Origin: Stieleria magnilauensis
GTDB lineage: Bacteria; Planctomycetota; Planctomycetia; Pirellulales; Pirellulaceae
Direction: 5' to 3'
Assembly (NCBI GenBank): GCA_007753675.1
Contig: CP036432.1
Location: 9,953,381 to 10,017,380, forward strand
DNA length: 64,000 bases
Positions 47,601-64,000 of the stretch are shown here, in pieces. Position numbers and translations under genes: made by a program. Under the pieces are notes generated by a model. That model was not told where the DNA came from. It searched no databases and saw only the letters and a list, made by a program, of their open reading frames with translations. Position 1 is the stretch's first letter, and each line of letters begins with the position of its first letter.

Positions 47601-50600
47601 CGCGAAGACCGTGACTGAATCGTCGTTATAGGAGGCGACGTACAGATAGTTGCCGTCTGGACTGGTCGTCACGCCGGCGGCTTCATCTAAGTAGTTGGCT
47701 CCCGATGTCCCATCCTTGATCGACTGGACGAGGGTGACGACGCCCGATCCTGCCGAACGCGTTGCCGGATTGGTCAACGCGAATCCGGCCGGTGGAATCA
47801 CCATAACCGAGTGGCTACCGGGACCGACGCCGCTGATTCGATACGCCCCCGATTCATCCACCGTCGTGGTCACTGGATCATCAACCGCGGTCATCGCAAC
47901 GGGTTCGCCGGAATCGAACTGGCCATTGGTATTGATGTCGACGAAAACGGTCGCTCCGGCGAGCCCTGGCTCACCCAGGTCCCCGAAACCGTCTTCGTCG
48001 GTGTCGACGACCAAGCGGCCACTGATCGATCCTGAATTCACAATCGAAATCGGATCGGAGAGCAATCCTCCGTTGTCGAACCCCGTTCCTCCGAGCGGAT
48101 AGGCTGCGGCATTGAGGATGGAATCATCATCGATCAGACGCAAACGCAGCGTTCCGTCGCCGCTGCCCGTGTGGACCAAGACGTCGTACAGCATCGGACC
48201 TCCGGTCACACTCAGCACCGACGCCCCGCTGATGCCCGTCGACTCGATCACGAAATCGCTCGGCTGCACGCCGGTCACTGGTTCGTCAAACGTCGCAGTG
48301 AAGGATACCGTCGGATCCGAGACGGGGCCGACCACTGCGGAACGGAGGCTGGTCGCCGAGGGATACAGGATTCGAATCCCAAAGTCGGCAGCCATCGTGT
48401 CGCGCCGTGCCGTCGTGATGACATGCGGTTCCGAAGTGACATCGCCGCCCAGACGGGTGAACCGTGTAAGACTATGGTCGCTTGCCGCTGCGGCGAATAA
48501 CTCACGACCGTCGGGCGATAGTTTGACAAATTCCACACCATTGAGGGCATCGTGTGGAGCAACATCATTCACGACTTGAAGGGAAGTCAGCTCACCGGTC
48601 TGTGTATCACGGGAAAGCGTCACGACCGCGTCCAGCGTTTTGTCCGCGACGTAGACAAACCGACCGTCCGCACTGATCTCCAAATCGTGTGGCGCGTTCA
48701 GGCCGAAAGCTCCACCAGCCTGTTGCACCCACTGCCCGGCGATCAGCCGGAAGACCCTGATTTTATCTGATCCGCTGGAAGTCGTTGCGGAGTACGCGAA
48801 TTGCCCATCGGGAGAAAAGGCTATATCGGAGGATGAAGAGAGTCCGCTGAAAAACTGCGACTCGACCAGACGGCCACTTCCGGGCGTGATGTTGTAGACC
48901 GTCAACCTTGACGAAAAAAACGCACTGACAAACAACTGAGAACCATCCGGCGACACCTGAACTTTGTTGGGATTGTCCAGGCCGTCGACGCCATCGATTT
49001 CGTGACGCAACTCTTGAATCGGTTGCAACAGTCTCGTTGCGACATCAATCCGATAGGCTGACAGGGTGTCGCTGTAGATTCCTGCGGTATAGAGGAACTC
49101 GCCGTCGGGGCTGACCGCCGCGGAACTGATTCGTTCAAACGAATTGCCTTCACCGACCGTCCCCTGAACCGTGTCCACGACACTCAGTTCGCCGGTCGCC
49201 CTGTCACGACCGACGACAAAGATCGTATTGTCCGCGATCAAGTACCCCGAACCCTCGTCAGGCCCGAAAATCAAGTGCCTGGGTGCGCCCAGCTCGGAAA
49301 AGCCGGGACTGGTGTCGGACCAAGATCTGTCGAACACAAACGGATCACTGACCGACGCGCGATTGAAAAGGGAGACCTTGTTGCCGTTGGGCGATAACGC
49401 GTACAGTTGCTTTCCGTCCCGGGTCAGCGTGATTCCGTACGTCAAAAACAGCGTGTCCGAGCTGTTCACGCCACCGAAGACCGAATCCGTAAAGCTCAAT
49501 AAGCCGTCATCCTGCGCATGGGAGACCGGAGCGGTCTGACGATACTGAGTCGCATCAACCCTTAACTCATACGTCGTCACAGCCGCCAAGCCGGTCAGCG
49601 TATACATTCCCGTTTCATCGATCTCGGTCGTCGCAGGATCATCGTCTTGCGTGACCACGGAGGGTTCGCCGGCGTCTCGTGATCCGTTTGCATTGCGATC
49701 GGCGTAGACCGTGATTCCAAATTGCCCGGATTCATTGAGATCCGAAAGCCCGTCCGCATTTGCGTCGACCCAAACGCGCCCACTGATGGTTGCGTCATCG
49801 ATCATGACGACGGGGGATTGAACGGATCCGTCACCGGCCCCGCTACCCGCCGTGCCGACATCGCCGAGCGGATTGGCCGCCACATCCACAATTGTGTCAT
49901 CGTCGACCAACGCGAGCGCAATGCTACCGGCCGTACCGGTGACGCTGACGTCGACGCGATAAACACTGGCGTCGTTGGTTGCGACGACGGCGTCCACGTT
50001 GCCAACGGCCCCCGCGCCGTCGACAGATTGAAAATCAGTCACATCCACGCCGCTGACCGGCTCGTCAAACGTCACGAAGAAAGAAAGCTGACGAGCCAAT
50101 GGAGCAACGCCCGGCGCAGCGGCAATGGCGGCGACCTGGGGAGGGAGCGAATCCACGTGCAAGGCTGCGGTGCGACGGACCACCGCGCCGGTTCCGATAC
50201 CGCCCAAGGGAATCGCATTTGCATCAACGATGGTATCGTCGTCGATCAATTGCAATTGCAGATTCCCCGCATAGCCTGGTGTCGTCACGGTGATCGTGTA
50301 ATCGGTCGGCCCGCCGCTGACCGATGTGATCGCGGAGTCGGCCAGGCCGCTGTTAAACAGTTGAAAATCGCCTACGTCCACGCCGGAAACGGCTTCGTCA
50401 AAGACAAGCGTGAAATCGACTTGATCTGCGGGCTCGGGACTGACCGACGTGGTTGAAAACCCAGTGACTTGTGGTGACGCGTCGCTGACCGCAAAATGAA
50501 TGTTTGTGACCGATTGACCATCCACCGTGGTGACCAGCGATGCGATTGCAGATCGCCCGGTGGGATTGGTCCAGAAGGTCTGAAGACGATTGCTCGCCTG

Positions 50601-52007
50601 GGAGGCCAAGTAGAGATGCTGGCCGTCGGGGCTGATCGCAACGCCCTCGGCGTCTTCCATGCCCCGGACGTCGCTTGAATCGAGCGTTTGGTTCAATGTC
50701 ACCGCACCGCTGGTCGGATCACGATCAAAGGCCAACAGCGAATCGGTATAACTGGAGGTCGCATAGATCGCGGATTGATCGGGACGCATCACCAACTTGT
50801 CCAGACGTTTGGAGCCCAAGTCGAGCGACCCTTGAACTTGGACATCACCTGTCACTTCATCACGCGTCAGCGTCCAAAGTCGGCCGTTAAAATCGGCGAC
50901 ATACAAGAAACGACCATCGTCGGAAAAGATGACGTCTCGGTTGGACCCCAGCTGAAGACTCGTCCCGCTGAGCGCTACGACGCCTGTCGCGGGATCACGA
51001 TCGAGTAACGTCAGTGGTCCGCCGCTTGCCTGAGTCGCGACGGCGACAAGCGTTCCGTCCGGCGAAACTCGCGGCTGTTGGGGGAAGTTCATCCCGACCA
51101 CACCGTCAACGCCTTCGGTAAACGTTTGGGCTAACGAAAGCGTTCCGGCTGATGCATCAACGTTGTAGACCAACATTGATTGGGTCGTTGAAGAGGTCGC
51201 GAACAATTGTGAGCCGTCGGGCGCGAGTGCGAGGGCGTAGACGCGATCGAGGTTGGCATCGTCATTGATCGTGATCGACTGCACCATGGACAACGCGCCC
51301 GAAGAATCCATCTGCAAAACGTTGATGGCATCTGAATACCCGGCAGGGACATAGAGGAAGCGCCCTTCGGGTGAAAACACGCTGCGACGAATCCCATAAA
51401 GCGTGGTGCCATAGAAATCGGCTTGATAGGTCAGCTGGCCATCTTGAGCACGCCGTGCGTACGTGGTGACACGTTGCCCTTGGTCCCAGCCCACGACCAC
51501 GAATCGGCCGTCCGGTGAAACTTGAACATCTGTTGGTCCGGAGACGAAGTTTTGCAACGGCCGCGGGGCGTCTTCAAACAGGGTCAACGTTAACGCGGTT
51601 GCCGGCGAAAGCGGCGCCGTCTGCCGCGTGTTGGCCGAAAGCTCGATCGTCACGTGATGGGTCTGTTCGCTCAGGTTGTCGAGCACATAGCGGCCAAGCT
51701 CGTCAACGCCCGGTGTCCCCGGGTCGTCCGCGGTGGTTTGCGTGAACGGTTCACCCGCGTCCCGCGCTCCGTTGGTATTCAGGTCGGCATAGACCGTGAC
51801 TCCGGCGATTCCCGCTTCGGCATTGTTTTCAAGACCGTCTTGATTTGAATCCGCAAACACCAAGCCTTCGATCGACGCGGTCAGTAAATGACGTGCCTCC
51901 AACGACTCATAGAGCATCCGGCGTCGGGACTGTCGCGGCTGTCGTTGCGGTCCCCGATCAGAACGATTCGGCTCGGAGACAGGGCGGTTGCGTCGCGCAG
52001 ACTTCAT
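32652..52007 (-). CDS. Giant SdrD_B/Ig-like/propeller protein with C-terminal dockerin-like pair
   Basis: 6,451 residues, complete. The ATG at 52007 has GAGGT 7 nt upstream; a start 48 codons earlier would be less well placed. The N-terminus has an R-rich stretch and SLEARHLLTAS (about 36-46), the LExRxLLSA motif of giant planctomycete proteins. Then: 15 SdrD_B-like prealbumin modules (DxNxDGxxDxGEP cores, often followed by DDPATTTIDETGxY); 11 Ig-like modules with FDEPVSGVDxxDF, LIDDDTIVD and PLGGxGxG; four YVTN/lactonase-like propellers (first at about 150-495, with SPDGRFVVV, SPDGQHLYL); PD40/TolB-like propellers (about 2840-3225 and 5720-6130, SADGRYVVFWSYS); a cadherin-like domain; a final beta domain; and two DSDGDGDVDGQDYGRFG dockerin-like loops. 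It likely forms a long Ca2+-stiffened surface stalk. It flanks the sulfatase cluster but has no clear shared transcript. Confidence 0.94.
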   Translation of the reverse strand: MKSARRNRPVSEPNRSDRGPQRQPRQSRRRMLYESLEARHLLTASIEGLVFADSNQDGLENNAEAGIAGVTVYADLNTNGARDAGEPFTQTTADDPGTPGVDELGRYVLDNLSEQTHHVTIELSANTRQTAPLSPATALTLTLFEDAPRPLQNFVSGPTDVQVSPDGRFVVVGWDQGQRVTTYARRAQDGQLTYQADFYGTTLYGIRRSVFSPEGRFLYVPAGYSDAINVLQMDSSGALSMVQSITINDDANLDRVYALALAPDGSQLFATSSTTQSMLVYNVDASAGTLSLAQTFTEGVDGVVGMNFPQQPRVSPDGTLVAVATQASGGPLTLLDRDPATGVVALSGTSLQLGSNRDVIFSDDGRFLYVADFNGRLWTLTRDEVTGDVQVQGSLDLGSKRLDKLVMRPDQSAIYATSSYTDSLLAFDRDPTSGAVTLNQTLDSSDVRGMEDAEGVAISPDGQHLYLASQASNRLQTFWTNPTGRSAIASLVTTVDGQSVTNIHFAVSDASPQVTGFSTTSVSPEPADQVDFTLVFDEAVSGVDVGDFQLFNSGLADSAITSVSGGPTDYTITVTTPGYAGNLQLQLIDDDTIVDANAIPLGGIGTGAVVRRTAALHVDSLPPQVAAIAAAPGVAPLARQLSFFVTFDEPVSGVDVTDFQSVDGAGAVGNVDAVVATNDASVYRVDVSVTGTAGSIALALVDDDTIVDVAANPLGDVGTAGSGAGDGSVQSPVVMIDDATISGRVWVDANADGLSDLNESGQFGITVYADRNANGSRDAGEPSVVTQDDDPATTEIDETGMYTLTGLAAVTTYELRVDATQYRQTAPVSHAQDDGLLSFTDSVFGGVNSSDTLFLTYGITLTRDGKQLYALSPNGNKVSLFNRASVSDPFVFDRSWSDTSPGFSELGAPRHLIFGPDEGSGYLIADNTIFVVGRDRATGELSVVDTVQGTVGEGNSFERISSAAVSPDGEFLYTAGIYSDTLSAYRIDVATRLLQPIQELRHEIDGVDGLDNPNKVQVSPDGSQLFVSAFFSSRLTVYNITPGSGRLVESQFFSGLSSSSDIAFSPDGQFAYSATTSSGSDKIRVFRLIAGQWVQQAGGAFGLNAPHDLEISADGRFVYVADKTLDAVVTLSRDTQTGELTSLQVVNDVAPHDALNGVEFVKLSPDGRELFAAAASDHSLTRFTRLGGDVTSEPHVITTARRDTMAADFGIRILYPSATSLRSAVVGPVSDPTVSFTATFDEPVTGVQPSDFVIESTGISGASVLSVTGGPMLYDVLVHTGSGDGTLRLRLIDDDSILNAAAYPLGGTGFDNGGLLSDPISIVNSGSISGRLVVDTDEDGFGDLGEPGLAGATVFVDINTNGQFDSGEPVAMTAVDDPVTTTVDESGAYRISGVGPGSHSVMVIPPAGFALTNPATRSAGSGVVTLVQSIKDGTSGANYLDEAAGVTTSPDGNYLYVASYNDDSVTVFARNAATGQLTVVQQVVENIGGVTGLLGAQSIAISEDGESLYVASSIGDSLVMFDRDPSDGTIAYLGRLRDGFSGADGLNNAVSVQISKDGRHVYVAAIDDSSVAVFTRDASTGLLTFAQKLTANTAGAFAVEISPDQRHVYVSGQVQSGVTVYDRDSTTGLLTLKQTVRQTDSGVNGLSGASGISMSPDGKNLYVAGYFNEGLAVLDRDLVTGELSFNEFVPDPSSTATTRPISVLVSRDGHHVVAMYEIYDAIVIYNRDSATGKLTTRQVVRDGFGGVDGLNGAWDAEFSNDDEYLYVVGAYDDAVVAFDRDAGPWVATNVAVEVVLGETSVLAPFAAVNLIPAVDSVQYSGTTPANQSPITIDVTFSEPVTGFDLSDISLGGNVVSANVVDLSGSGADYVVTITVGEDQGTLELTILDNDSIVDVQSVPLGGPGAGNGQFSMAPLEVDLLDPSVVSITAGQSSPTAENRIDFTIDFNEPVTGVLESQFSIVGTSADASITSFQASSTIPGRYYIEVYVGSSLNSEVGLRFNDDDAVVDAVGKPVGGPGIGNGDFDSALIVVDRDVSISGVIWDDVNRDSIRDVGEPGIANVTVYVDLDDNGQFDAGTEPSQVSASDDPATTTIDETGQYTFDGLAAGFRTVRLVSADPNVQQSHPSSGRVFPAGQSSLGQPLSNDDKSIVASDDGKFLYVADEGTDDILVYRIADDGTGIERIMTIDHGNDTNKGFREITLSPDQKHLYVTGYDGDNLGVFDRDAETGVISHRQTITGGGYLVEVSPDGRFVYTGSSAIKTFTRDAVTGELTYANQFFEGFVRDRRDLAIDPSSGFLYTAVDAVPSFGSIQPDLIEVFSISAVTGELTRLQVLSESLTGDDSLDGVHSLAISSDGQFLYAGAQDDDALTVYSRGASDGLLQRIQVVGGAPGLATAIKGPEAIALSSDGNLLYVVGTYNMRLAILDVDQATGRLTLLETFGQNSGAPWGEDMALTDANPFLYATSDRFISYYRKTEGLRVAEPHIVLGAAGGDYDGADFGLVDLEPNVVIIAPTTRPREGNATAQMTVTFSEPVTGVDVTDFILEADQITGSSVQSVSGSGAEYFVTIVTGTPDFPDADRTLTLRVVDDETIIDNNGNSLSGPTTLGTDSVRSIPLVLDQKPPQIDSVARLNDENTTGSLVRYRIAFDENVFDTVDAADFQLIATGLPDATIQDITRSGNQYTINVATGLGSGTIELQLAPGVDIQDLAGNPLSAGGFGDASVLQTRYIIERDPTGYITGKVFDDANGNGILDGAESVAVGQTVFVDANHNGVLDTGESSTLTEVDGTYTLGPLFSGLYDVTLVVPVDDVLTAPALGGRPIVRASLDSTGRQIDVAASNPSTDRTGTRVAFDSLADNLVAGDGPGRDVFVRNLQSGQIQLVSVAHNGLAADGDSSHAVVSDDGQFVVFYSTATNLVENDTNGFADIFLRDLVQGKTERISVAWNGDQGDGPVGMVSDIDSLGRYVAFSSHAQNLHSGDVNGFEDIFLFDRVENQLTLASLTSNRRQSDGPSHSPSVSTNGGRVAFLTSAPNLTGLPSVIGEQVVVRAPKNFGSTTYVSKAPDDSGGNGTSYRPSISNDAMIVAYVSDASNLVAGDSNGQGDAFIYDFISRENTVISRRPDGTAAGGATGITSIDENGELVAFVSNATGLVPWVDGSFEDVFNFHRSGQYVELVSADSSAIPGQGDSYAPSVSADGSRVVFASVASNLVTGDTNGLEDLFSVDTSLPLPPVGVHRVTTSVLSTLENIDLAFSNQPPSIVSIDPAVTSTRLAAIDFTVTLTEPVTGLDATDFAIDVTGTASATLASITGADDTYTVSLSLGTGQGTLVLRLIDDDSIIDAEGLPLGRTGSNGGAESMPVIVDNQAPTLVSITKLDPDPTGDTSLRFAVTFDEPVVGLQTTDFLINAVGVTGGQISNLTGTDASYVVSISHNGDVGTIGIDFVDDDSVLDALGNPVGGAGNAVLSGPTYSIETGAITGAVYFDHDRSGTIESTDAGLSGQTLYIDLNGDGDLDSGEPTAVTTADDPATTTIDETGRYRFEDLVQSSYLVRWLGGAGWVQSVPSLGSGVAVDLMVKDGPAQADFALSNQVPEVLSITTSQTEPDANDKMTYQIVFDQDVVGVDTSDFVVGSVEVAGMTISSVSGGPSSYDVTVDFAAASGQGDIALQLNDDDSIRDLLNAPLGGVGTGTNVARSLPLFVDFQPPTVLSIVAVNAPLLDLADLVFQVTFSEPVSGVDAADFAVALSGVSGTSILSVTPQSGNAIYEVVLDSGVGDGTIELELIDDDTIVDSAGHLLGGTGAGNGSFVDGDVVLVERFPRRSLSGHIFFDTDGDGVRDPGETGVPAAGVYLDLDNDGQRDANEPVGTAANDDPQTLGVDEAGFYRFGSLELGQYILRVRPDLRWIDDINNFTAVTLELSTTEAVADLGVIPNLAAINGLVYDDLNRDGVLDAGEPGLAGWTLYIDDNGNDQLDAGERTTVTSADDPLTAEDETGRYSFSPLEFQSHRVQLVGRPEFFSTSPTFLDRTIAGGASVEIANFGTTENLTRISGAVFGDTDGDGIRSAGESGLADWTVFLDENQNGQWDTGEPTMQTLADDPATTSIDEAGMFEFTTLNLGTHVVYASEPVGYLSTSPNPVSVSFTASTDAADVSFALATNDTTLSGIVFDDVDRDGIRDAGEAGVSGATVYLDLNDNGSRDVDEPSRFTAADGRYEFLHVVPGNHVVRADLPPLHEATSPAHEVAVALNQLITDLDFGARYLGYQITGTQFDDFNDNGVRDAGEPPLSGVTVFADFNNNGFPDPGEPQTTSGSGGEYVLAGTQPGTFTVRALSPEHYRPSDSYPSRDRLFGISNLHSQLPSPTQLVLSEFDPASGNVLGEFTVNQPVTTETSLTFDGQNLVLVNNDSHRLVQLAFDGTQVQEFSLPRALTGAPYAIFDVSSPVMIGGFLFVVAGSTTDNMELWRSDLYPDGLGANYASTGDWERIGLITLTNPPATPGVTLSLQRASTTSADGRNLIVGVSASAPFLNHWLQIDPFSQTAELVNDFNTQDTERGMARIGDEVFVAYPVPFTNTDGQIIVYSNSGGVNRSLNGFPAQQGLAAGLYRDNGVVVTLAERESVADVNHFHHAELASISGNVAKDLDVSGSIDAGEPALADVTVYVDLDGNRQFDSGEPSAVSDQNGDYTIVGLVPDRYTVRQVSPADHDGFAVAESITRLFTQATDAGVSTIYEIDTESGAVLNQFPSPGSVETHAGMTIYEGDLYLAKSNQLFRIDPDSGEVLETIPTTPGLKDAIEIRDGVAYMTQQGGVGIEQFDLQRRRVITQLDIHAINNITGLGYVISTQGAAVDRESFLLEMRSGTYNVDFRTGLIIPHTPTHGFPWTAYLAAAGGESFTYATYGTSLRTIATTSTEPYNVPGAVTYRNLYSAISGTVSDYGADVDLPAEHTVWVAQNDSVTDVDFGNQPAAGTISGVQFVDDNGNGIRDAGEAPLAGITVFLDENANGFADPGEPQTVSAADGTYLFAGVPLGRHLVRAESPDHFRPTTISSVTDRLFGVARVSNAGSPTGYFLQIRELNPLTGDRLSSIDTTIPVDLPYTAAFDGKRLIVVDNNLDLLFEVALDGRLLDQTPLPGNGSTSVFSQGPVVIDGTIYLLTNGGGMPMQLLRFDADTNEYYGAMPISRYIDPANELNGLPQLSLSLSESPDGQSILAFSNVDSRVFVIDPLTARMTSVIDLPRTDDGDWSAAAVGGELFVRSSGSQGNLDVYDSQYNLLRTLGNPATSGLGGGAFVDSGIVATVTSAAGAAGIDLGHRSTTSTISGTVLDDFNKNRAADGGETAAIGVRVYIDSNRNGRFDSGEPETLSAADGSYSFQGLTPGDYTVRVDQPVSLEVLTDRDAVSLYSLDVDQGVSTIRKYDPITGQLLREFPAPGTSTTLAGLALDDSGLFYSANSTLWKLDPDDGQTLNSIPLPTGEYGGLAAIDDRVYAIDASSNLLYKIDVDTMQVVETIDVNAVNPSVPLGVNFQDNLGETSDVTRLMTRLHSGGGTIILDPATGLYEPRIATNLGTTGLSGAEGEIYRAYGGQIRVESLLEGFIRNVATVQAPYGIGAASVASSEHVVRAAPGVDHSELNFFQQVDGPASIGGVLWDDSNADGAMDSGESRLAGRTVFLDDNRNGQLDSGEPFVVTASDDPATNGIDETGRYRFDDVTPGIHDVVQVLPIGWRPTYPFAETFDVQHVVANGYVAGENTGTNPFYDSSISDGGAFIAFSTYNTLLAEDTYTGADIYVLDTAAGQLELITVSSDEAASNGRSLHPVVSADGRYVVFWSYSTNFVANDNNDTLDIFVRDRQLGTTTLISAVDPSLSTGSSTANSYSYSPGFSDDGRYVTFWSNATDLVPGDTNGVFDLFLRDLQQGTTERINLAPDGSQASGGNTHNSHLSADGRFVAYWSWADNLVAGDTNGVSDAFVLDRDTGITERVSVTASGVQSDANVHNVSISDDGRYVVFHSNATTLDNVPGAVGTQVYLKDRTTGELRMIGRDRDGFGPNQSAVLPTISGDGRWVVFNSWASNLTDDDTDGGSDAFLYDVANDRVTLLSRSISGGAGNGRTDWVRISNDGSTVTFNSAANNLTSPTTAGGNLYSVSIDQLTDATVFQSVTVASGQTLDGINFGSVYDPIAPGDLTLSAAGIVENLDTTASDTLIAQLSTVDSDTPTGHSYALVSGIDDADNSKFNVVGNQLFLKQGQVVDYEAQAEYRIRLSVTDTTGLTLEKAVRLDVVDRLEMAPIDLAGGSQQRSLLSSLSIAFDTQVDVDPGAFAVRHRDLGGDVDFTITLDHSGGKTTATLTFAGIYTEAGGSLIDGNYQLTIDGDKVRSTVGGLNFDADGDGVDGGLYQLGEEAADGFFRLFGDSDGDRDVDGQDYGRFGLTFLKNEGQTGFNDALDSDGDGDVDGQDYGRFGQRFLRTLRFD
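32655..32880 (-). other. C-terminal dockerin-like Ca2+-binding pair of the giant protein
   Basis: Two matching loops, GDSDGDRDVDGQDYGRFGLT and DSDGDGDVDGQDYGRFGQRF, sit at the end of the protein. Two DxDGDxDVDGxDxxxFG loops about 30 residues apart are the signature of type I dockerin domains. In planctomycetes these often close giant proteins and may attach or sort them at the surface. Confidence 0.75.
34920..51870 (-). repeat. Fifteen SdrD_B-like (prealbumin-fold) modules
   Basis: Copies begin near 51870, 49805, 48040, 45905, 43805, 41605, 40565, 40225, 39895, 39550, 39245, 38120, 37145, 36090 and 35130, each about 65-80 residues. The core reads SGxVWxDxNxDGxxDxGEP-xLAGxTVYxDxNxNGxxDxGEP, ending in ETGxYxFxxL. 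The Asp-rich DxNxDG loops bind Ca2+ in the staphylococcal Sdr proteins. Copies 7-11 stand in direct tandem, the rest are separated by Ig-like modules and propellers. Confidence 0.85.
40590..50470 (-). repeat. Eleven Ig-like modules with LIDDDTIVD motif
   Basis: Modules start near 50470, 50160, 48370, 46570, 46260, 44500, 44160, 42260, 41950, 41260 and 40920. Each has F-x-V-TFDEPVSGVD-x2-DF, then G-x-A-x-I-x-SV-x-G, YxVTV, and L-x-LIDDDTIVDA-x2-PLGG-x-G. They mostly come in pairs just ahead of an SdrD_B module. This is a common bacterial Ig-like or Bap-like adhesin repeat. Confidence 0.8.
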
Positions 52008-52014
52008 GTTGCGA

Positions 52015-52019
52015 ACCTC
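52015..52019 (-). promoter_or_regulatory. Shine-Dalgarno of the second giant gene
   Basis: GAGGT on the minus strand, 7 nt ahead of the ATG at 52007. It decides this start against the longer frame. Confidence 0.6.
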
Positions 52020-52228
52020 GAGCCAAGCGACTGGGGAAAGCAGCCCGGCGATCCGGTGATGAGGAGGGGAATGAGTGTGGGCAGGGGGAGAGAGGATCAC
52101 TAGCTTAGCGGTTAACAACGCGCGCCGCAAAATCCGGCGGCTGGCCGCCAAACCCCACCCTGACCATTGAAGCTCAGCCGTCGATCGCTCCCCACATCAG
52201 CGATGTTGACACCACCCGGCGCGTTGAT

Positions 52229-56089: not shown

Positions 56090-56192
56090 CGCTTTTTCCA
56101 GGGTGGGGCCGTCGATGGATTGGGGCGGCAACCTGCACGAAGGCCTGGCGAAACCAGAGAGGGTCGAGGCCTTCACAGCGAGTGAAAGAGAG

Positions 56193-56265
56193 TGGTCAGG
56201 GCCGGGCTCGAACCGGCGACACCGGCCTTTTCAGGGCCGTGCTCTACCAACTGAGCTACCTGACC
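56193..56265 (-). tRNA. tRNA-Phe (GAA)
   Basis: 73 nt cloverleaf on the minus strand: acceptor GGTCAGG/CCTGACC, D-arm GCTCAGTTGGTAGAGC, anticodon stem CGGCC/GGCCG with loop CTGAAAA (anticodon GAA), T-arm GCCGG-TTCGAGC-CCGGC, discriminator A. The 3' CCA is not encoded. Confidence 0.95.
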
Positions 56266-56625: not shown

Positions 56626-57552
56626 ATGTCAACCATCGTCGAGCAGGAAGAAAAATCGGACCAAATGGAAGCGGCCCGGCTGGAGCGGGAGCTCGAGCGC
56701 GAAAAACTCAAGCTCAGCCGCTTCGACTCGGTGACCTCGCTGTTCCTGGCCTTGATCCTGTTTCTCGGCGCGTTCGTGTTCATGATGTTCGTCGTCTGGC
56801 TGCTCAGCGGGGAACCCAAACCGATCGCGTTGGCACCGATCATCGAAAACCCGCCCGGCCGCGGTGAAAACCCGGAGGGTTTCGAGCGTGATTTCGAACC
56901 ACCGGGGGCCGAAGAGGTGGAGGATTTGATGGAACCGACGCTGGCCGACACGATCGAGGCGGTCACCGACGCGGTCAGCAGCGTGGCCGCTTCGCTGACG
57001 ACCGCCGACACCAACGCCACCGCCTCGACGCAGGGCACCGGCCAGGGGGACAGCCGACCGCCGGGACCGATGGGTGAGGGGGACGACATCATCGGCCGCT
57101 GGGAGCGCTGGGAGCTGACGTTCAACGCCAAAGGCAAGAATGACTACGCCAAACAATTGGATTTTTACAAAATCGAACTGGCCGCCTTCGGGGGCGGTGG
57201 CCCCAACGTCATTGAGATGGCCAACAACTTATCCACCTCGCCGACCAAGCGAGTCAACACGCAGCCCAAAACCGAAGAACGGCTGTACTTTTCATGGAAA
57301 CTCTCCAACCCGCTGCTGCAGTTTGACCGCCAGCTGCTCACCGCCGCCGGCATCCAGGTCAACGGCCGAAATGTGATCCGCTTTGTCCCCAAGGATCTGG
57401 AAAACCAGTTGGCCAACATGGAAAAGCAGTACGCCGAAGAAAAAGGAAAAAAATTCCCCCACTCGATCGCCAAAACCGTCTTCGAAAGCACCGTCGACGG
57501 TGGCGGCTACTCCTTCAGCATCGTCAGTCAACGTTACCGAAAGGGTTACTGA
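56626..57552 (+). CDS. TonB-like single-span envelope protein of unknown family
   Basis: 308 residues. A short charged coiled-coil-like N-terminus (about 6-32, AARLERELEREKLKLSRF) is followed by one membrane helix (about 36-60, SLFLALILFLGAFVFMMFVV). The long outer part holds an acidic, Pro/Gly-rich linker (about 65-150), then a compact end with DDIIGRWERWELTFNAKGKN and YKIELAAFGGGGPNVIEMAN. This layout fits a TonB or TolA-like partner of ExbB/ExbD, and it heads their operon. No TonB C-terminal domain signature is visible, so the analogy is by position and topology. GGAGGT lies 12 nt ahead of the ATG. The next gene follows after 164 bp. Confidence 0.8.
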   Translation: MSTIVEQEEKSDQMEAARLERELEREKLKLSRFDSVTSLFLALILFLGAFVFMMFVVWLLSGEPKPIALAPIIENPPGRGENPEGFERDFEPPGAEEVEDLMEPTLADTIEAVTDAVSSVAASLTTADTNATASTQGTGQGDSRPPGPMGEGDDIIGRWERWELTFNAKGKNDYAKQLDFYKIELAAFGGGGPNVIEMANNLSTSPTKRVNTQPKTEERLYFSWKLSNPLLQFDRQLLTAAGIQVNGRNVIRFVPKDLENQLANMEKQYAEEKGKKFPHSIAKTVFESTVDGGGYSFSIVSQRYRKGY

Positions 57553-57716
57553 GCTGATCGACGGGGGGAAACCGATCGTCCGGGAGATTCCCTGGCAGAA
57601 TCGACCGTACGAACGACCGTGTAGAACCAAGGTTCGGCTGAAATGGTCCAGCCCGACCGATCGCCCTGCCACCCAAACGAAACCTCTCAACTCATCAATC
57701 AACGGGAAAGACACGA

Positions 57717-58373
57717 ATGTCAATGATCCTTGCGTATTCGCTTTTCAACATGATCGCCGATGCGACCTACCTCGCACTCGCGGCGGTGGCACTTTGGGGG
57801 TTGTACTGCATCGTCGTCGTCTGGAATCGCGTCGGACAAAAACGGTTCAAGTCCGAAGACGAACAAGACCAGTTCCTCGACGACGTGGAACAGATGATTC
57901 AAGCCGGCGATTTCGAAGGCACCATCGATTACTGCGAAGGCGACGCGCGGGCGTTGCCCCAGATCATCGAATTGGCCGTCAGCCATCGCAACCTGGGGTA
58001 CAACCGAGCCCGCAAGTTCATGATGGACCGGTTCCAGCGTGACGTCATGAGCGATCTGGATTATCGACTCAGCTGGGTCGGCACCGTGATCAAAGCCGCT
58101 CCGATGATCGGGTTGTTCGGAACCGTCTTCGGCATGATGGGCGCGTTCCAAACCCTGGCCACCGCCGAGTCGGTCGAGCCGAGCAAGCTGGCCGGCGATA
58201 TCCGTGTCGCACTGGTGACGACCGCCAGCGGATTGGCGATCGCCATCCCGCTGATGATCCTGGTCGCCAACGTCAACATTCGAATCGCCAAGATGGAAGA
58301 CCTGGTCGGATCCGGGCTCAGCCGTTTCATGGACGCCTTCAAAGCCGGACTCGCTCGCAGCGGGGGACGCTAA
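57717..58373 (+). CDS. MotA/TolQ/ExbB proton-channel family protein
   Basis: 218 residues with three membrane segments (about 12-34, 120-142, 164-186), the usual TolQ/ExbB topology. Conserved stretches are the first cytoplasmic domain (EQDQFLDDVEQMIQAGDFEG), the long helix with WVGTVIKAAPMIGLFGTVFGM and the third segment TTASGLAIAIPLMIL, typical of the family. With ExbD partners it should form a proton-motive-force-driven inner-membrane motor. The ATG is at 57717. Three ExbD-like genes follow closely, but only one ExbB-like gene is present, so one channel may be shared by several ExbD types. Confidence 0.92.
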   Translation: MSMILAYSLFNMIADATYLALAAVALWGLYCIVVVWNRVGQKRFKSEDEQDQFLDDVEQMIQAGDFEGTIDYCEGDARALPQIIELAVSHRNLGYNRARKFMMDRFQRDVMSDLDYRLSWVGTVIKAAPMIGLFGTVFGMMGAFQTLATAESVEPSKLAGDIRVALVTTASGLAIAIPLMILVANVNIRIAKMEDLVGSGLSRFMDAFKAGLARSGGR

Positions 58374-58379
58374 CGCATC

Positions 58380-58868
58380 ATGAGTAGCGTGATCGAGGAA
58401 CCTGACATCGAGGAAGATGATGATTTCCAAATGCCTCGCAAAAAGCGAGACGAAGACGAAATGGACATCACCCCGATGATCGACATCACCTTCTTGTTGC
58501 TGATCTTTTTTGTCGTCTGTTCCAAAATGGATCCGACCCAGATGGGGAAGATCCCCGAAGCACAAAACGGTATCGCCATCAGCGCCAAAGAGTCGGCGGT
58601 CGTGTTCATCGAACCGGCCGGCAAAGACAAGGTCATCCTGAAACGAATCGACGGAACCGAATTCAGCAGCGACGAAGAAACCCAAACGACCGAATTGATC
58701 GAATACATCACCGAAGAACTCAAGACCACCCGCGGGGAAGAAAAAAACCACGTGATGATCATGGGCGACGGCGAAGTCACGGTCGGCGAGGTGACGCGTG
58801 TGCAGAAAATCATCGGCGACGCGTTTGAAGACATTTCGTCCACCTACATCGCGGTCAAAGAACTATGA
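58380..58868 (+). CDS. ExbD-like biopolymer transport protein 1
   Basis: 162 residues. An acidic N-terminus is followed by the membrane helix MDITPMIDITFLLLIFFVVC (about 28-47), with Asp35 at the place of the proton-carrying Asp of ExbD/TolR. A periplasmic domain of the ExbD fold follows. It starts 6 nt after the ExbB-like stop, and its own stop overlaps the next ATG (ATGA), so translation is coupled. Confidence 0.92.
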   Translation: MSSVIEEPDIEEDDDFQMPRKKRDEDEMDITPMIDITFLLLIFFVVCSKMDPTQMGKIPEAQNGIAISAKESAVVFIEPAGKDKVILKRIDGTEFSSDEETQTTELIEYITEELKTTRGEEKNHVMIMGDGEVTVGEVTRVQKIIGDAFEDISSTYIAVKEL

Positions 58869-59290
58869 CGCGCCGCAACGAATCCGAACTCGACCTGACG
58901 CCGATGATCGACGTCACGTTTTTGATCCTGATTTTTTTCATGGTCACCGCATCGTTTTCGATGCAGCGTGCGATCGAGACGCCGAACCCGGAAAACGACC
59001 AGGCCAGCCGGGAGGCCGTCGTCCGCGACCACAATCCGTTGCGTTTGCACGTCGACCGACATGGCAGTTTCTTGTTGATGGCAACCGACTGGCAAAAGGA
59101 ACTGGTCGGCAAACAGGAATTGGTGAGCGAACTGGCGGCCGCAAAACGCGCCACGCCGATGACATCCGACCTGCGGATCGAAGTCGAATCGGCGGCCCGG
59201 TTACAGGCCCTGGTGGATGCGATGGATGCCGCAACGATCGCCGGATTCCAACAGTTTCAGCTGACCGAAATCGCGTCCGAATTGATTTAG
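58865..59290 (+). CDS. ExbD-like biopolymer transport protein 2
   Basis: 141 residues, the shortest of the three. It starts inside the end of gene 1 (ATGA overlap). N-terminal SELDLTPMIDVTFLILIFFM has Asp16 at the proton site, and a periplasmic part follows (about 38-141). Its sequence differs from protein 1 beyond the helix, so it is a diverged paralogue. Confidence 0.92.
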   Translation: MTRRNESELDLTPMIDVTFLILIFFMVTASFSMQRAIETPNPENDQASREAVVRDHNPLRLHVDRHGSFLLMATDWQKELVGKQELVSELAAAKRATPMTSDLRIEVESAARLQALVDAMDAATIAGFQQFQLTEIASELI

Positions 59291-59319
59291 ACACACAGCT
59301 CCTCTTCTCGTCCCAACGC

Positions 59320-60111
59320 ATGTCGATTCCAGTTACCTGTCCCCAGTGCGGTGCCACGAACAAAGTCAACGATTCGTTGGCCGGTCGTCGTGTGCGCTGC
59401 CCGCAGTGCGACACGGCGGTTCACGTCCCCGAAGCCGACCTGGGCACCGCTCCGCCGCCCCTGCCTGGCCCATCCGATGCGTCTGGCCCATCCGATGCGG
59501 CAGAGGCCGACCCCGTGGTGGTCGCCGCGACGCCCGTCGAAGCGGTTGCGCCCCCCGCGGCAGCCCCATCGCCGCCGACTGACAGGCCGCCGAGGGACAG
59601 GCCGGCAACACCGGTCGGGCCCGCGCCCGCCGCCCCCTTGGCGGGACTGGACGACGATGACGATGACGAACCGATCTTCCAAAAAACCAAACGGGAAGAA
59701 GAAGAGCTGGACATGACCCCGATGGTCGACGTCACGTTCCTGCTGCTGATCTTCTTCATGGTGACCGCGGCGTTCAGTCTGCAAAAATCGATCGAAATGC
59801 CGCGGCAACAAACCGACGCCCCGAGCACCACGGTCGTCGAAGAGGAAGAGGAAGACTTGGAAATGGTCGAAGTCCAAGTCGACGAATTCGGATCCTTCCT
59901 GGTCCTGGCAACGGACTGGCAAGAGGAAACGCCCGGCAAACAAAACCTGATCACGACGCTCAAGCGCGCCAACGAAAGCGGCAATCCGGCAAGGTTGGTC
60001 ATCAAAGTTCACGAACTGTGCAAGCTGCAGTACCTGGTCGACGCGATGGACGCCGGAACGATCGCCGGATTCACCGAAACCCAGGTCACCCAAGTCGAGG
60101 AATTCGACTAG
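59320..60111 (+). CDS. ExbD-like protein 3 with N-terminal zinc ribbon
   Basis: 263 residues. The start at ATG 59320 puts a zinc ribbon at the N-terminus: C7-PQ-C10 and C27-PQ-C30 with the GATNKVNDSLAGRRVR spacer, as in the MJ0042-type finger common in planctomycetes and other bacteria. A Pro/Ala-rich linker (about 40-118) and the ExbD helix LDMTPMVDVTFLLLIFFM (about 130-147, Asp137) follow, then a periplasmic domain (ELTQVTQVEEFD end). The ribbon must face the cytoplasm. A longer frame starting earlier would overlap the two upstream genes and is rejected. A fusion of zinc ribbon and ExbD suggests binding of a cytoplasmic partner or sensing. It sits 29 nt after gene 2 and 97 nt before the PQQ gene. 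Confidence 0.9.
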   Translation: MSIPVTCPQCGATNKVNDSLAGRRVRCPQCDTAVHVPEADLGTAPPPLPGPSDASGPSDAAEADPVVVAATPVEAVAPPAAAPSPPTDRPPRDRPATPVGPAPAAPLAGLDDDDDDEPIFQKTKREEEELDMTPMVDVTFLLLIFFMVTAAFSLQKSIEMPRQQTDAPSTTVVEEEEEDLEMVEVQVDEFGSFLVLATDWQEETPGKQNLITTLKRANESGNPARLVIKVHELCKLQYLVDAMDAGTIAGFTETQVTQVEEFD

Positions 60112-60208
60112 TGCCGCTTTCGATTTGTTTCGGTCACCATGGACACAACACGTGGCGGTACGGCGGATCGCTCGTCAACCACTTCTCGTAACCACTCTTT
60201 TTATCACG

Positions 60209-63200
60209 ATGCTTGCTAACGAACTGATCGATCAACTGGAACGACGTGGTCTGCTGGACCAGGAGATCATCGAAGCGCTGCGCGAACAACTGGACCAGGG
60301 CGGCGCACGGGTGACCCCCGAAGCGGTCGCAAAATTGCTGGTCGACAACGGGCAACTGACCCGTTTCCAAGCGACCAAGTTGATCGGCGAAATCCGCAGC
60401 GGCGAGTACGCCGACGACGCGACGATCGCCGCGGCGGAAGTCGTGGAAGACGACTTGGTCGCGATCGACGACGACGACGATGCGGACGAAGTCCAAGCCG
60501 TCGAGGCGATCCCGGTCGAAACGACCGCCGAGCCGTTCGCCGAATTCGAACCCGTCGAAGCCGAAGCGGTCCCCGTCCAAGCCGTTCCCGTCGCCGACAA
60601 CGACTTGCTCTCCGAAGCCCCCCAGCGCGAACGCCCCCGCGCCCGACGCACCAAACCCGCCCCCCAAGAAAACCAGTGGGACTCCTTCAAGATCTACGGG
60701 TTCTTGGGGATCATCGGATTCCTGCTCCTGTCCGGCGGCGGCCTCTATTGGATCCTCTCCCGCGGCAACGCAGACGAACGCATCCAGATCGCCAACGAGC
60801 TTTACGACAATCAAAACTACACGCCGGCTCAAGAGAAATACCTGGAGTTTCTCGATTCGTTCGGCAACGCCAATGAACACAGTTCCCTGGCGCGGACCCG
60901 CGTGATCATGACCGAACTGTATCGCGCCGAAGGCATGACCGATCCGACCTACGCGACGGAATTGGCGCGAGAAAAGCTGCCCGAGATCGAAGACGAAGAG
61001 GGGCTCAACGAAGAGCGTGGCAACTTGGCCGCGCTGTTGGTCAAGATCGCCGAAAACATCGTCAACGAAGCCAACGAAAAATCGGAAACCACCGCCAAAC
61101 GAGAGCTCTTGAACAAGCTGGAAGAGCAGATCGAGTTGACCAACAACCCGCAATACATGACCGGCGCGATGCGGACGACGCTCTCCGGACGACTCAAAGA
61201 AATCGACGAAGCACGGGGCCGCGTCGAACGCGAAATCAACCGCAACGAACAACTCGATGCCGCGGTCGATCAAATGACCGCCTTGCTCGCCGAAAAGAAA
61301 ACCAAGGAAGCGTACGATGTTCGCTACGAACTGCTCCGCTCCTTTCCCGAACTCGGCGACAACGAACGGCTGGCCACGCTGATCGCCAAGGCCAGCGAGA
61401 TTCAACAGCAACTGGTCGAAACCACTGCGGCGTTGCCCCAGCGGATCGAAGCCGAAACGCAAACCGACTTGAACCCGATCGTGTTGAACGCACGCTCGGG
61501 TGATCGCGTCCCCGACTTGCGTGACGAAGTGATCTTCATTCGAACCAAAGGCAGTGTGTTGGCCTTCAACGGCGAAGACGGCACGCTGCTGTGGCGGCGC
61601 TACGTCGGGAACTCCCTGGCCCACAGCCCGATCCGCCTGGACGGCGGCACCGCGGTGTTGCTGACCGGATCGAGCGACCTGTCGGTGGAACGCTGCGACG
61701 GACGCAGCGGTGAGGTCGATTGGCGTGTCAAGATCGGCGAAGCGTTCAACCAACCGGTTGTCAGCGACAACGACATTTTTATCTCGACCAAGTCCGGACG
61801 ATTGATCGAGCTGGACGCGACGACCGGTGACGCCAAATGGGCACAGCAGATCCCCCAATCGCTGGAGGTCGGACCGGGTGTCGACGACCGCGCCGCAATC
61901 GCCTACATCCCCGGCGACCACAGCAACCTGTACGTGCTGGACAGCAACAACGGCGACAGCATCCAAAGCTATTACGTCGGGCACAAAGCGGGCACCATCG
62001 CGGTGCCGCCCACGCCGCTGCTGGAACACCTGTTTGTGATCGAAAACAAAGGCCCCGAGTATTGCCTGGTTCACATCCTGGGCGTGGACGAAAACGGCGC
62101 GAACGTGACCAAGGTCCAGGACCCGGTGCGGATGAGCGGGAACGTGGTCGTGCCGCCGATCGTGGCCCAGCAACGCCGCCTGGTCGTGCTGACCGACCTG
62201 GGCGAAATCTCCGTGTTCGACATCGAAGTCACCAGTGAAACGGACAAGGTCTCCGTCGTCGCCAAACAACTTGCGTCTTACGGAACGCCGACGCTGACAC
62301 AGATGGCCGTCGGCCGCAGTCAAATGTGGACCACCGGATCGCGGATCGGACGCTACGAGCTGCAAGTCAACCGCGCCCGAGTCGTCCCGGACTGGTTCAA
62401 ACACGAAGGCGACATGTTTGTCGGACAACCGCTGGCGATCGGCGATGCACTGGTGCACGCACGACAGCTGCGGGGCACCTCGGGCATCCGGGTCTCGGCG
62501 GTCGATCCCAAAACGGGCGAGGAACTGTGGCGCAATGACATCGGTGCCCCCGTCGCCATGCTTCGCCGTGCCGACGCGGGCGTGCACGCCTTGACCACCC
62601 AAGCGGCCCTGTTTGAATTGGACCGATCGGCGATCGCAACCGGTGCCACGCGGGCACCGATCGAGAACCGCGGCGGCGTTGGTGTGATCATGCGTTTCGA
62701 AGATCCGCTGAAGATCGACGACAACCGCGCGGTACTGTTGAACAAAGCGGGCGGCGAAGGCGGCCAGCAAGTCGCCGTCTACGATCCGACACGCACGACC
62801 GAAAAACTGCGGCTGGTCAGCTTGAACGTGCTTTCTGGAAAACCCTCCGGACGCGGACTGGTCGCCGGCGGAGGCTTGTTCCTGACACTCGACAACGGTC
62901 GTGCGGTCGTGATGGATTACCAGACGGGATCGCAACTGGGCAACCCCTTCCAGCCGATCGCCAACCCCGTCGAAAAGATCTCGTGGTCCAACGCCGTGCG
63001 GCTTCCCGATGATCCGGGACAAGTCGTCGTCGCCGATAGCCGAGCCGGTCTGTACCGGTTGCGGGTCGGCCCCCGAACGACACCGTTGGCCGAAACCAAA
63101 CTGCCCGCGGCAACGCTGGGAACCATCGCCGGCGTCGACACCACGCTGTTGGCGGCGATCAGTGGACCGGCGGCGGATTTGATCATCGGTCGAGATCTGG

Positions 63201-63583
63201 TGACGCTGAAAGAGAAATTCCAAACCCAAATGGACGGCCGAGTGATCTGGGGACCGGCGACGGCGGGCGACCAGGCGGTCGTGTTGACCGATGACCAAGT
63301 CCTGCGAGGGATCACAACCGACGGCCAAACCACGTTTGCGGTCCCCGTCCCACGCGGCTTGCCCGTCGGAGACGCCGTGATCCACGAGGGCAACATCATC
63401 CTCGTTTCTGACTCCGGCTGGATCGTCGTGATCGATCCGGCCTCCAATGATCCGGTCGGCTTGACCGAGATCGGCGAACCGTTCTCGGCAACTCCCCTGG
63501 TGCTGCAAGATCGATTGCTGGTGCCCGGCGAAGAGGGTGTCGTCTACGTCGTCAAGATTCCCAGTGGGGTGAGTGGCCAATGA
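60209..63583 (+). CDS. Membrane-spanning PQQ-like beta-propeller protein
   Basis: 1,124 residues. Cytoplasmic N-terminus (about 1-65) carries LLVDNGQLTRFQATKLIGE; a similar short module is, as far as I know, found ahead of kinase domains in planctomycete Ser/Thr kinases. An acidic linker, one membrane helix (about 160-184, FKIYGFLGIIGFLLLSGGG), a helical TPR or coiled-coil-like part (about 190-430) and then PQQ-like blades (about 440-1120, LAFNGEDGTLLWRRYVG, ELDATTGDAKWAQQIPQSLE, VDPKTGEELWRNDIGAP) follow. No enzyme active site is visible, so it is probably a scaffold like BamB. The ATG at 60209 removes 28 residues of a longer frame that has no signal of its own. Its stop overlaps the next gene's ATG. 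Confidence 0.9.
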   Translation: MLANELIDQLERRGLLDQEIIEALREQLDQGGARVTPEAVAKLLVDNGQLTRFQATKLIGEIRSGEYADDATIAAAEVVEDDLVAIDDDDDADEVQAVEAIPVETTAEPFAEFEPVEAEAVPVQAVPVADNDLLSEAPQRERPRARRTKPAPQENQWDSFKIYGFLGIIGFLLLSGGGLYWILSRGNADERIQIANELYDNQNYTPAQEKYLEFLDSFGNANEHSSLARTRVIMTELYRAEGMTDPTYATELAREKLPEIEDEEGLNEERGNLAALLVKIAENIVNEANEKSETTAKRELLNKLEEQIELTNNPQYMTGAMRTTLSGRLKEIDEARGRVEREINRNEQLDAAVDQMTALLAEKKTKEAYDVRYELLRSFPELGDNERLATLIAKASEIQQQLVETTAALPQRIEAETQTDLNPIVLNARSGDRVPDLRDEVIFIRTKGSVLAFNGEDGTLLWRRYVGNSLAHSPIRLDGGTAVLLTGSSDLSVERCDGRSGEVDWRVKIGEAFNQPVVSDNDIFISTKSGRLIELDATTGDAKWAQQIPQSLEVGPGVDDRAAIAYIPGDHSNLYVLDSNNGDSIQSYYVGHKAGTIAVPPTPLLEHLFVIENKGPEYCLVHILGVDENGANVTKVQDPVRMSGNVVVPPIVAQQRRLVVLTDLGEISVFDIEVTSETDKVSVVAKQLASYGTPTLTQMAVGRSQMWTTGSRIGRYELQVNRARVVPDWFKHEGDMFVGQPLAIGDALVHARQLRGTSGIRVSAVDPKTGEELWRNDIGAPVAMLRRADAGVHALTTQAALFELDRSAIATGATRAPIENRGGVGVIMRFEDPLKIDDNRAVLLNKAGGEGGQQVAVYDPTRTTEKLRLVSLNVLSGKPSGRGLVAGGGLFLTLDNGRAVVMDYQTGSQLGNPFQPIANPVEKISWSNAVRLPDDPGQVVVADSRAGLYRLRVGPRTTPLAETKLPAATLGTIAGVDTTLLAAISGPAADLIIGRDLVTLKEKFQTQMDGRVIWGPATAGDQAVVLTDDQVLRGITTDGQTTFAVPVPRGLPVGDAVIHEGNIILVSDSGWIVVIDPASNDPVGLTEIGEPFSATPLVLQDRLLVPGEEGVVYVVKIPSGVSGQ

Positions 63584-64000
63584 AATTCCAAGCAACCTCT
63601 CGCGCTCTCCTGCGAACCCTGGGCATCCTCGCACTGGGGCTGGTCGTGATCGGACTAAACCGACCGGCTCAGGCACAAATGCTGACCTATGCCGAATCTG
63701 GCAAACCGGAAGATTCCGGGCTGGGTTTGTTGCAAGAAGAACCGCACGACATCATTTACTTCACCGAGAAATCCGGTGGCGGATGGGTGAAATCTCACCT
63801 GTTGCCGGTCCGGGACATGCCGACGACGCCGCGCGGAACGTTGCAATTTTCGATTCTTGGCATCGAAGTCGAGCAATTTGTCGCCAAGTGGTCGGACATC
63901 GAACGCATCGATTTCTGGGAAAAACGACTCGAGCGTGAAACCGCATCGCGAATCGCCAACGAAGATTTCGTCGGCGCGTACCCGTTCCTGTCGATCTTGA
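63580..64000 (+). CDS. Secreted protein, start only (cut by window edge)
   Basis: 140 residues visible. The ATG at 63580 overlaps the TGA of the PQQ gene (ATGA). A signal peptide with a long hydrophobic core (LGILALGLVVIGL) ends with cleavage after QAQ or ...PAQA. The mature part has no family I recognise. Translational coupling to the PQQ gene suggests a shared job in the ExbB/ExbD envelope system. Confidence 0.8.
   Translation, partial: MKFQATSRALLRTLGILALGLVVIGLNRPAQAQMLTYAESGKPEDSGLGLLQEEPHDIIYFTEKSGGGWVKSHLLPVRDMPTTPRGTLQFSILGIEVEQFVAKWSDIERIDFWEKRLERETASRIANEDFVGAYPFLSIL

Follow-up and report, generated by a model that had tools for sequence, protein, structure and literature searches.

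Organization of the locus

The stretch of DNA analyzed here, referred to as the window, comprises 64,000 nucleotides of Stieleria magnilauensis (contig CP036432.1, positions 9,953,381 to 10,017,380 of the forward strand). At its 3' end lies an operon in which the subunits of an ExbB-ExbD-type proton motor are combined with a single-span transducer, a propeller protein, and a relative of solute-binding proteins (SBPs), and which continues beyond the window. The features, in window coordinates, are as follows.

56626-57552, + strand: single-span TonB-like transducer, 308 residues; transmembrane (TM) helix, linker, and, in an AlphaFold2 (AF2) model, a folded C-terminal domain of no recognized family
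57717-58373, + strand: ExbB/TolQ-type channel subunit, 218 residues; MotA_ExbB, 83.5 bits
58380-58868, + strand: ExbD1, 162 residues, proton-site Asp35; ExbD, 61.9 bits
58865-59290, + strand: ExbD2, 141 residues, Asp16, without zinc ribbon; ExbD, 81.4 bits
59320-60111, + strand: ExbD3, 263 residues, Asp137, N-terminal MJ0042-type zinc ribbon; ExbD, 71.1 bits; MJ0042, 24.2 bits
60209-63583, + strand: propeller protein, 1,124 residues; PQQ_2, 80.3 bits
63580-64000, + strand, continuing to ~65934 (L009:8961-11315): SBP_bac_5-like protein, 784 residues in all; SBP_bac_5, 55.3 bits
Beyond the window, 3' of the SBP-like gene: second secreted-protein gene, likely with a TTG start overlapping the previous stop
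56192-56265, opposite strand: tRNA-Phe, upstream of the operon

ExbB exceeds the Pfam cut-off for MotA_ExbB (PF01618, 22.9 bits), and all three ExbD proteins exceed that of the ExbD family (PF02472, 25.4 bits). An earlier, sequence-only reading of the window had proposed one MotA/TolQ/ExbB-like gene and three ExbD-like genes at these places, the latter with the proton-site Asp at residues 35, 16, and 137, together with a membrane-spanning propeller, a coupled secreted protein, and ATGA overlaps between several genes. These assignments held, and the Asp positions were exact. Four-base ATGA overlaps were found within the window between ExbD1 and ExbD2 and between the propeller and SBP-like genes, and a TTGA overlap outside the window joins the SBP-like gene to the second secreted-protein gene. 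The zinc ribbon of ExbD3 (cut-off, 20.9 bits) had been overlooked.

Conserved sites in ExbB and ExbD

The comparison with related genomes covered 41 loci, a further 33 operon-type loci (L102 to L134) found among the best 80 of a genome-wide ExbB scan, and 22 more; the other 47 of these best 80 loci contain more distant ExbBs. Contigs that had been fetched twice (L105 = L060, L118 = L089, L120 = L088, and L123 = L097) were counted once, resulting in 92 loci; the 82 operon ExbBs used for the following site counts include these four. (i) Thr136 and Thr169, located in TM2 and TM3, are present in 82/82 operon ExbBs and align with the conserved GTV motif and the TM3 Thr of TolQ. (ii) Lys126 is present in 81/82 operon ExbBs, and the position is occupied by Ser, Ala, Thr, or Asn in 38 of the 47 more distant ExbBs. 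(iii) Pattern matching identified the proton-site Asp in 152 of 160 ExbDs. It was read by other means in another four, namely, the ExbD2 proteins of L009 and L058 and, by eye, ExbDs of L206 and L207; the remaining pattern misses are two sequences cut by contig ends (L114 and L130) and two that were not read (L086 and L204). (iv) Among the second ExbDs of loci with two, 51 of 69 show a zinc-ribbon pattern preceding the TM helix, compared with 0/75 first ExbDs; the count may miss the pattern where a frame is read from the wrong start. The position of the TM3 Glu of E. coli TolQ was also inspected; it is hydrophobic in 80/82 operon ExbBs, but Glu is found in just 7/47 distant ExbBs, and no inference was drawn. 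At the two loci with separate motor and payload, the TM helix of the first ExbD (L206:7508-8005 and L207:7594-8052) starts with ITAMID instead of ITPMID.

Two ExbD types per ExbB and the origin of the third

ExbB is present in 78 of the 92 loci and absent from 14. Two ExbDs accompany it in 72 of these 78 loci, in two of which (L114 and L130) a contig end truncates the second ExbD; three are found in five loci (L009, L058, L059, L060, and L062), and the single ExbD of L132 lies at a contig end. Two locus pairs within this set, L061/L103 and L083/L084, have identical ExbB cores in different genomes. A three-ExbD motor as the general state is thus ruled out. The sequence-only reading had envisaged a motor in which one channel serves three ExbD types or contains mixed ExbD subunits; the presence of more than one type proved correct, but three types are not the rule.

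ExbD types were assigned from the clades of a 148-row tree, from which the four repeat contigs, L084, rows without a readable motif, and cores shorter than 100 residues were excluded; motif-based labels were wrong for the ExbD2 proteins of L009 and L058 and for L112 and L125. ExbD1 (64 rows) and ExbD3 (66 rows) form two deep, separate clades with values of 98 and 99, respectively, in the Shimodaira-Hasegawa-like approximate likelihood ratio test (SH-aLRT). The window ExbD2 is nested within the ExbD3 clade, where it groups with the additional ExbDs of L058 and L059 (95) and, with lower support, of L062 (81). By its place in the tree, ExbD2 is a local, lineage-specific tandem duplicate of the ExbD3 type. 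The extra ExbD of L060 instead joins the ExbD3 proteins of its own locus and of L062 (84, not starred), and a second duplication is therefore likely, so that the third ExbD probably arose twice within one family as an ExbD3-type duplicate.

Stieleria tagensis (L102), the closest named relative among the matches listed (85% ExbB identity), has two ExbDs. It clusters with the window genome and genome G272 in both ExbD1 (99) and ExbD3 (97), and since G264 (L059), which lies outside this group, has a third copy, the simplest reading is that S. tagensis lost it. The ratio of nonsynonymous to synonymous substitution rates between the window genome and G272 amounts to 0.30 for ExbD2 and to 0.07 to 0.16 for the other seven genes, as determined from stop-to-stop frames that include some bases upstream of the starts and overlapping genes. 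All operon genes are under purifying selection, with a weaker but still purifying constraint on ExbD2.

The transducer

In the AF2 model, the transducer has a TonB-like layout of TM helix, linker, and C-terminal domain, with a predicted local distance difference test (pLDDT) score mostly above 90 for residues ~158 to 305 and below 60 for the linker. At the sequence level, several searches gave no match. (i) The window transducer matched no Pfam or NCBIfam model up to an E value of 0.1. (ii) None of 34 family members matched a Pfam model at an E value of 0.01, and the family thus has no TonB_C and no vWA domain as judged by sequence profiles. (iii) The family profile retrieved no chain among the PDB sequences at an E value of 0.1. 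(iv) The SHLS pattern (S-x3-H-x6-L-x3-S), spaced as in the TonB sequence given in PMC12215075, was found in the TM helix of 0/86 transducer copies, only two of which have any His in this helix. Because the modeled layout is that of TonB and there is no TonB_C match, no PDB sequence match, and no SHLS pattern, the predicted protein is TonB-like in form, not a TonB; the description as a TonB-like protein in the sequence-only reading stands for the layout only. The sole TonB_C match of the window genome is located elsewhere (C1:1339495, 1.34 Mb), ~1.4 kb from a Plug-domain gene.

The transducer gene is tandem-duplicated in L059, L060, L062, L076, L093, and L133. An ExbD3-type gene is duplicated as well in L059, L060, and L062; the window genome and G272 have an extra ExbD and a single transducer.

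The propeller, the SBP-like protein, and the second secreted protein

The propeller protein exceeds the PQQ_2 cut-off (27.6 bits) and can be called a TPR/PQQ-propeller protein. It is composed of an N-terminal region, one hydrophobic span (approximately residues 160 to 185, by eye), a helical region, and a PQQ/BamB-type beta-propeller. Its top PDB matches are designed propellers, followed by BamB; it reached 69.9 of the 285.2 bits required by the BamB equivalog model. The SBP-like protein, for which a signal peptide is visible by eye, matches SBP_bac_5 over residues 472 to 670 (cut-off, 32.4 bits). Its family profile retrieved family-5 solute-binding chains from the PDB, comprising 91 distinct sequences at an E value of 0.01 with a best score of 79.7 bits. 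It is thus, as far as its sequence indicates, a relative of family-5 SBPs with putative ligand binding.

Conservation of gene order and distribution

The order transducer, ExbB, ExbD1, ExbD3, propeller, SBP-like protein, and second secreted protein recurs in the families f1, f2, f3, f68, and f70, and the neighborhood comparison that the sequence-only reading had suggested therefore turned out in its favor, as did its profile check of the ExbD genes. The conserved set consists of a motor module (ExbB, ExbD1, and ExbD3) beside a payload module (transducer, propeller, SBP-like protein, and second secreted protein). ExbB was present in 37/41, 33/33, and 12/22 loci of the three locus sets, and the transducer accompanied it in 34/37, 31/33, and 9/12 of these, respectively. 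In G229 and G193, the motor is found elsewhere than the payload, still as one ExbB with two ExbDs (L206 and L207).

The SBP-like gene served as a marker for the distribution. A probe with this protein gave matches in 144 of the 149 genomes of the family, window genome included, and in 11 of the 147 genomes of a phylum-wide sample. A 22-row profile matched 109 of 391 phylum genomes. Among those listed for this profile were 61 class genomes, 60 of which had a match, including 57/57 outside family f72; this class count derives from a kinship-ordered listing that names the first 19 misses, the rest being taken as outside the class. In f72, three of four genomes match weakly (E values of 7e-39 to 3e-14), and G455 has no match. 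Matches outside the class were mostly low scoring, and no other operon gene adjoins the best of them (G034, E value of 8.5e-54; L186). Almost all genomes sampled from the family, and all those sampled from the class outside a single family, thus retain the marker gene.

Comparison with known systems

The published systems are considered here as far as excerpts of the cited papers describe them. In the AglRQS gliding motor of Myxococcus xanthus, one MotA/TolQ/ExbB protein and two ExbD/TolR proteins, encoded in one cluster, form a proton-conducting motor (PMC3169522). The window operon shares with it a single channel protein with more than one ExbD/TolR, but has three ExbDs instead of two; AglRQS works with Glt proteins, and a transducer, propeller, or SBP-like gene comparable to those of the window operon does not appear in those excerpts (PMC3169522). 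M. xanthus also has a TonB1-ExbB-ExbD1-ExbD2 set, likewise with one ExbB and two ExbDs, which is associated with TonB1 and with Oar, a TonB-dependent transporter (PMC11658791); in the window operon, no Pfam match to TonB_C or Plug was obtained. In the loci with force transducers of the Planctomycetes-Verrucomicrobia-Chlamydiae superphylum, the transducer ends in a vWA domain, often has an SHLS motif, and is preceded by a TPR gene (PMC12204202); the transducer of the window operon, in contrast, shows no vWA match or SHLS motif and is accompanied by a propeller and an SBP-like protein. E. coli ExbB-ExbD-TonB and TolQ-TolR-TolA are 5:2 motors with unequal places of the two Asp residues and a transducer bound via the SHLS motif (PMC12215075). 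The channel and ExbD/TolR families are common to them and the window operon, but each E. coli system has one ExbD or TolR and an SHLS-bound transducer, and the window proteins remain below the equivalog cut-offs (for ExbB with the exbB model, 47 of 206.2 bits).

The statement of the sequence-only reading that typical sets have one ExbD is hence too strict, and the pairing of one channel with two ExbDs is itself not new, as it is already described (PMC12204202, PMC3169522, and PMC11658791). For the combination of the propeller, the SBP-like protein, and the present transducer, no description was found in the open-licence literature, covered mostly at the level of titles and abstracts. In Rhodopirellula baltica, exbB (RB12053) and exbD (RB12055) are reported as salinity induced (PMC2754498). 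In genome G257, the operon ExbB is located at 5.81 Mb and a further ExbB at 6.50 Mb, near the place that linear gene numbering would give RB12053; the salinity-induced genes are probably a copy other than that of the operon, although this is not proven.

Proposed function and alternative explanations

We somewhat favor the view that most of the class families read have kept the cluster as a trans-envelope motor operon driven by protons, in which ExbB, ExbD1, and ExbD3 drive the payload. If the motor resembles ExbB-ExbD and TolQ-TolR, for which 5:2 structures are published, an ExbD1 and an ExbD3 would sit together in the ExbB pentamer; protons passing the two Asp residues would move this asymmetric pair, and the motion would be handed to the transducer as output arm. 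The transducer might then act on a load formed by the propeller, the SBP-like protein, and the secreted protein, in the periplasm or at the outer membrane, and would serve envelope upkeep or the handling of large substrates. ExbD2 may replace ExbD3 in some motors of this lineage. The sharing of one channel by ExbD1 and ExbD3 and the identity of the cargo are what we infer.

A number of data weigh against this view. (i) The His of the SHLS motif, on which TonB and TolA rely, is absent from the transducer, whose coupling to the motor is thus hypothetical. (ii) The link between the modules is not strict, since the payload occurs without an adjoining motor in seven loci (L069, L070, L090, L190, L191, L193, and L201). 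(iii) In f72, the flanks of the SBP-like matches (L187, L188, and L196) contain no other operon gene. (iv) Predicted promoters (2 found versus 2.2 expected from shuffles) and terminators (16 versus 18.8) are no better than chance.

Alternatively, one ExbB may serve different ExbD homodimers. Separate motors would then have this channel protein in common, with gene expression or the cytoplasmic zinc ribbon of ExbD3 deciding which of them is formed. The strong divergence of ExbD1 and ExbD3 in the tree, the restriction of the zinc-ribbon pattern to the ExbD3 type, and the gain or loss of the third copy are consistent with such a choice. However, both types are kept with one ExbB in the 72 two-ExbD loci, and even where motor and payload are apart, and free choice should permit the occasional loss of one type, of which there is no case among the loci not cut by a contig end. 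We consider this alternative unlikely.

More improbable still is a diverged Tol-Pal machine, with ExbB as TolQ, the ExbDs as TolR, the transducer as TolA, and the secreted proteins in place of TolB and Pal. The best PDB relative of the window ExbB is TolQ (62.8 bits), all three ExbDs score higher with the tolR model than with the ExbD equivalog models, and TolB is among the Foldseek matches of the second secreted protein. However, ExbB misses the equivalog cut-off of tolQ (71.2 of 221 bits), ExbD1, ExbD2, and ExbD3 miss that of tolR (40, 50.9, and 46.3 of 127.3 bits), and the TolB matches are poor (root mean square deviation of ~20 Å; template modeling score below 0.15). No Pal- or TolA-like gene was recognized in the operon, the rest of the genome not having been searched for Tol-Pal genes. 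The reading of the locus as part of a defense system can be set aside, as the sole PADLOC match at an E value of 0.01, a prokaryotic Argonaute model matching ExbD1 (E value of 0.0055; 13.6 bits), was taken as chance.

The favored motor can be drawn in more specific terms, which we put forward tentatively and hold to be less probable than not. In this picture, several families of the class would have retained a motor that is obligately heteromeric for ExbD1 and ExbD3, with a transducer that belongs to none of the TonB, TolA, and vWA families and is coupled to the channel in another way. The motor would power an undescribed core envelope machine, made of the propeller and two periplasmic-binding-protein-like subunits, and Stieleria-like lineages would exchange a third ExbD into the motor. 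The operon is an ancient, natural instance in which different proteins may occupy the two ExbD positions of a 5:2 motor; if they do, the differing environments of the two proton sites would become accessible to the mutation of one Asp at a time.

Additional ExbD-containing loci and neighboring genes

The window genome contains a second set of one ExbB and two ExbDs with overlapping genes at ~1.268 Mb of C1 (L013:5205-7134, + strand). Two tandem ExbD genes, located at ~7.837 Mb of C1 (L012:6603-7470, - strand), lie beside a transketolase-like gene in a stretch with no ExbB match. One ExbB and three ExbD-like frames are also present at L150:9426-11331, a locus that appears unrelated. Within the window itself, a single open frame of 6,499 codons (32652-52151, - strand) encodes a giant repetitive protein that appears to be secreted.

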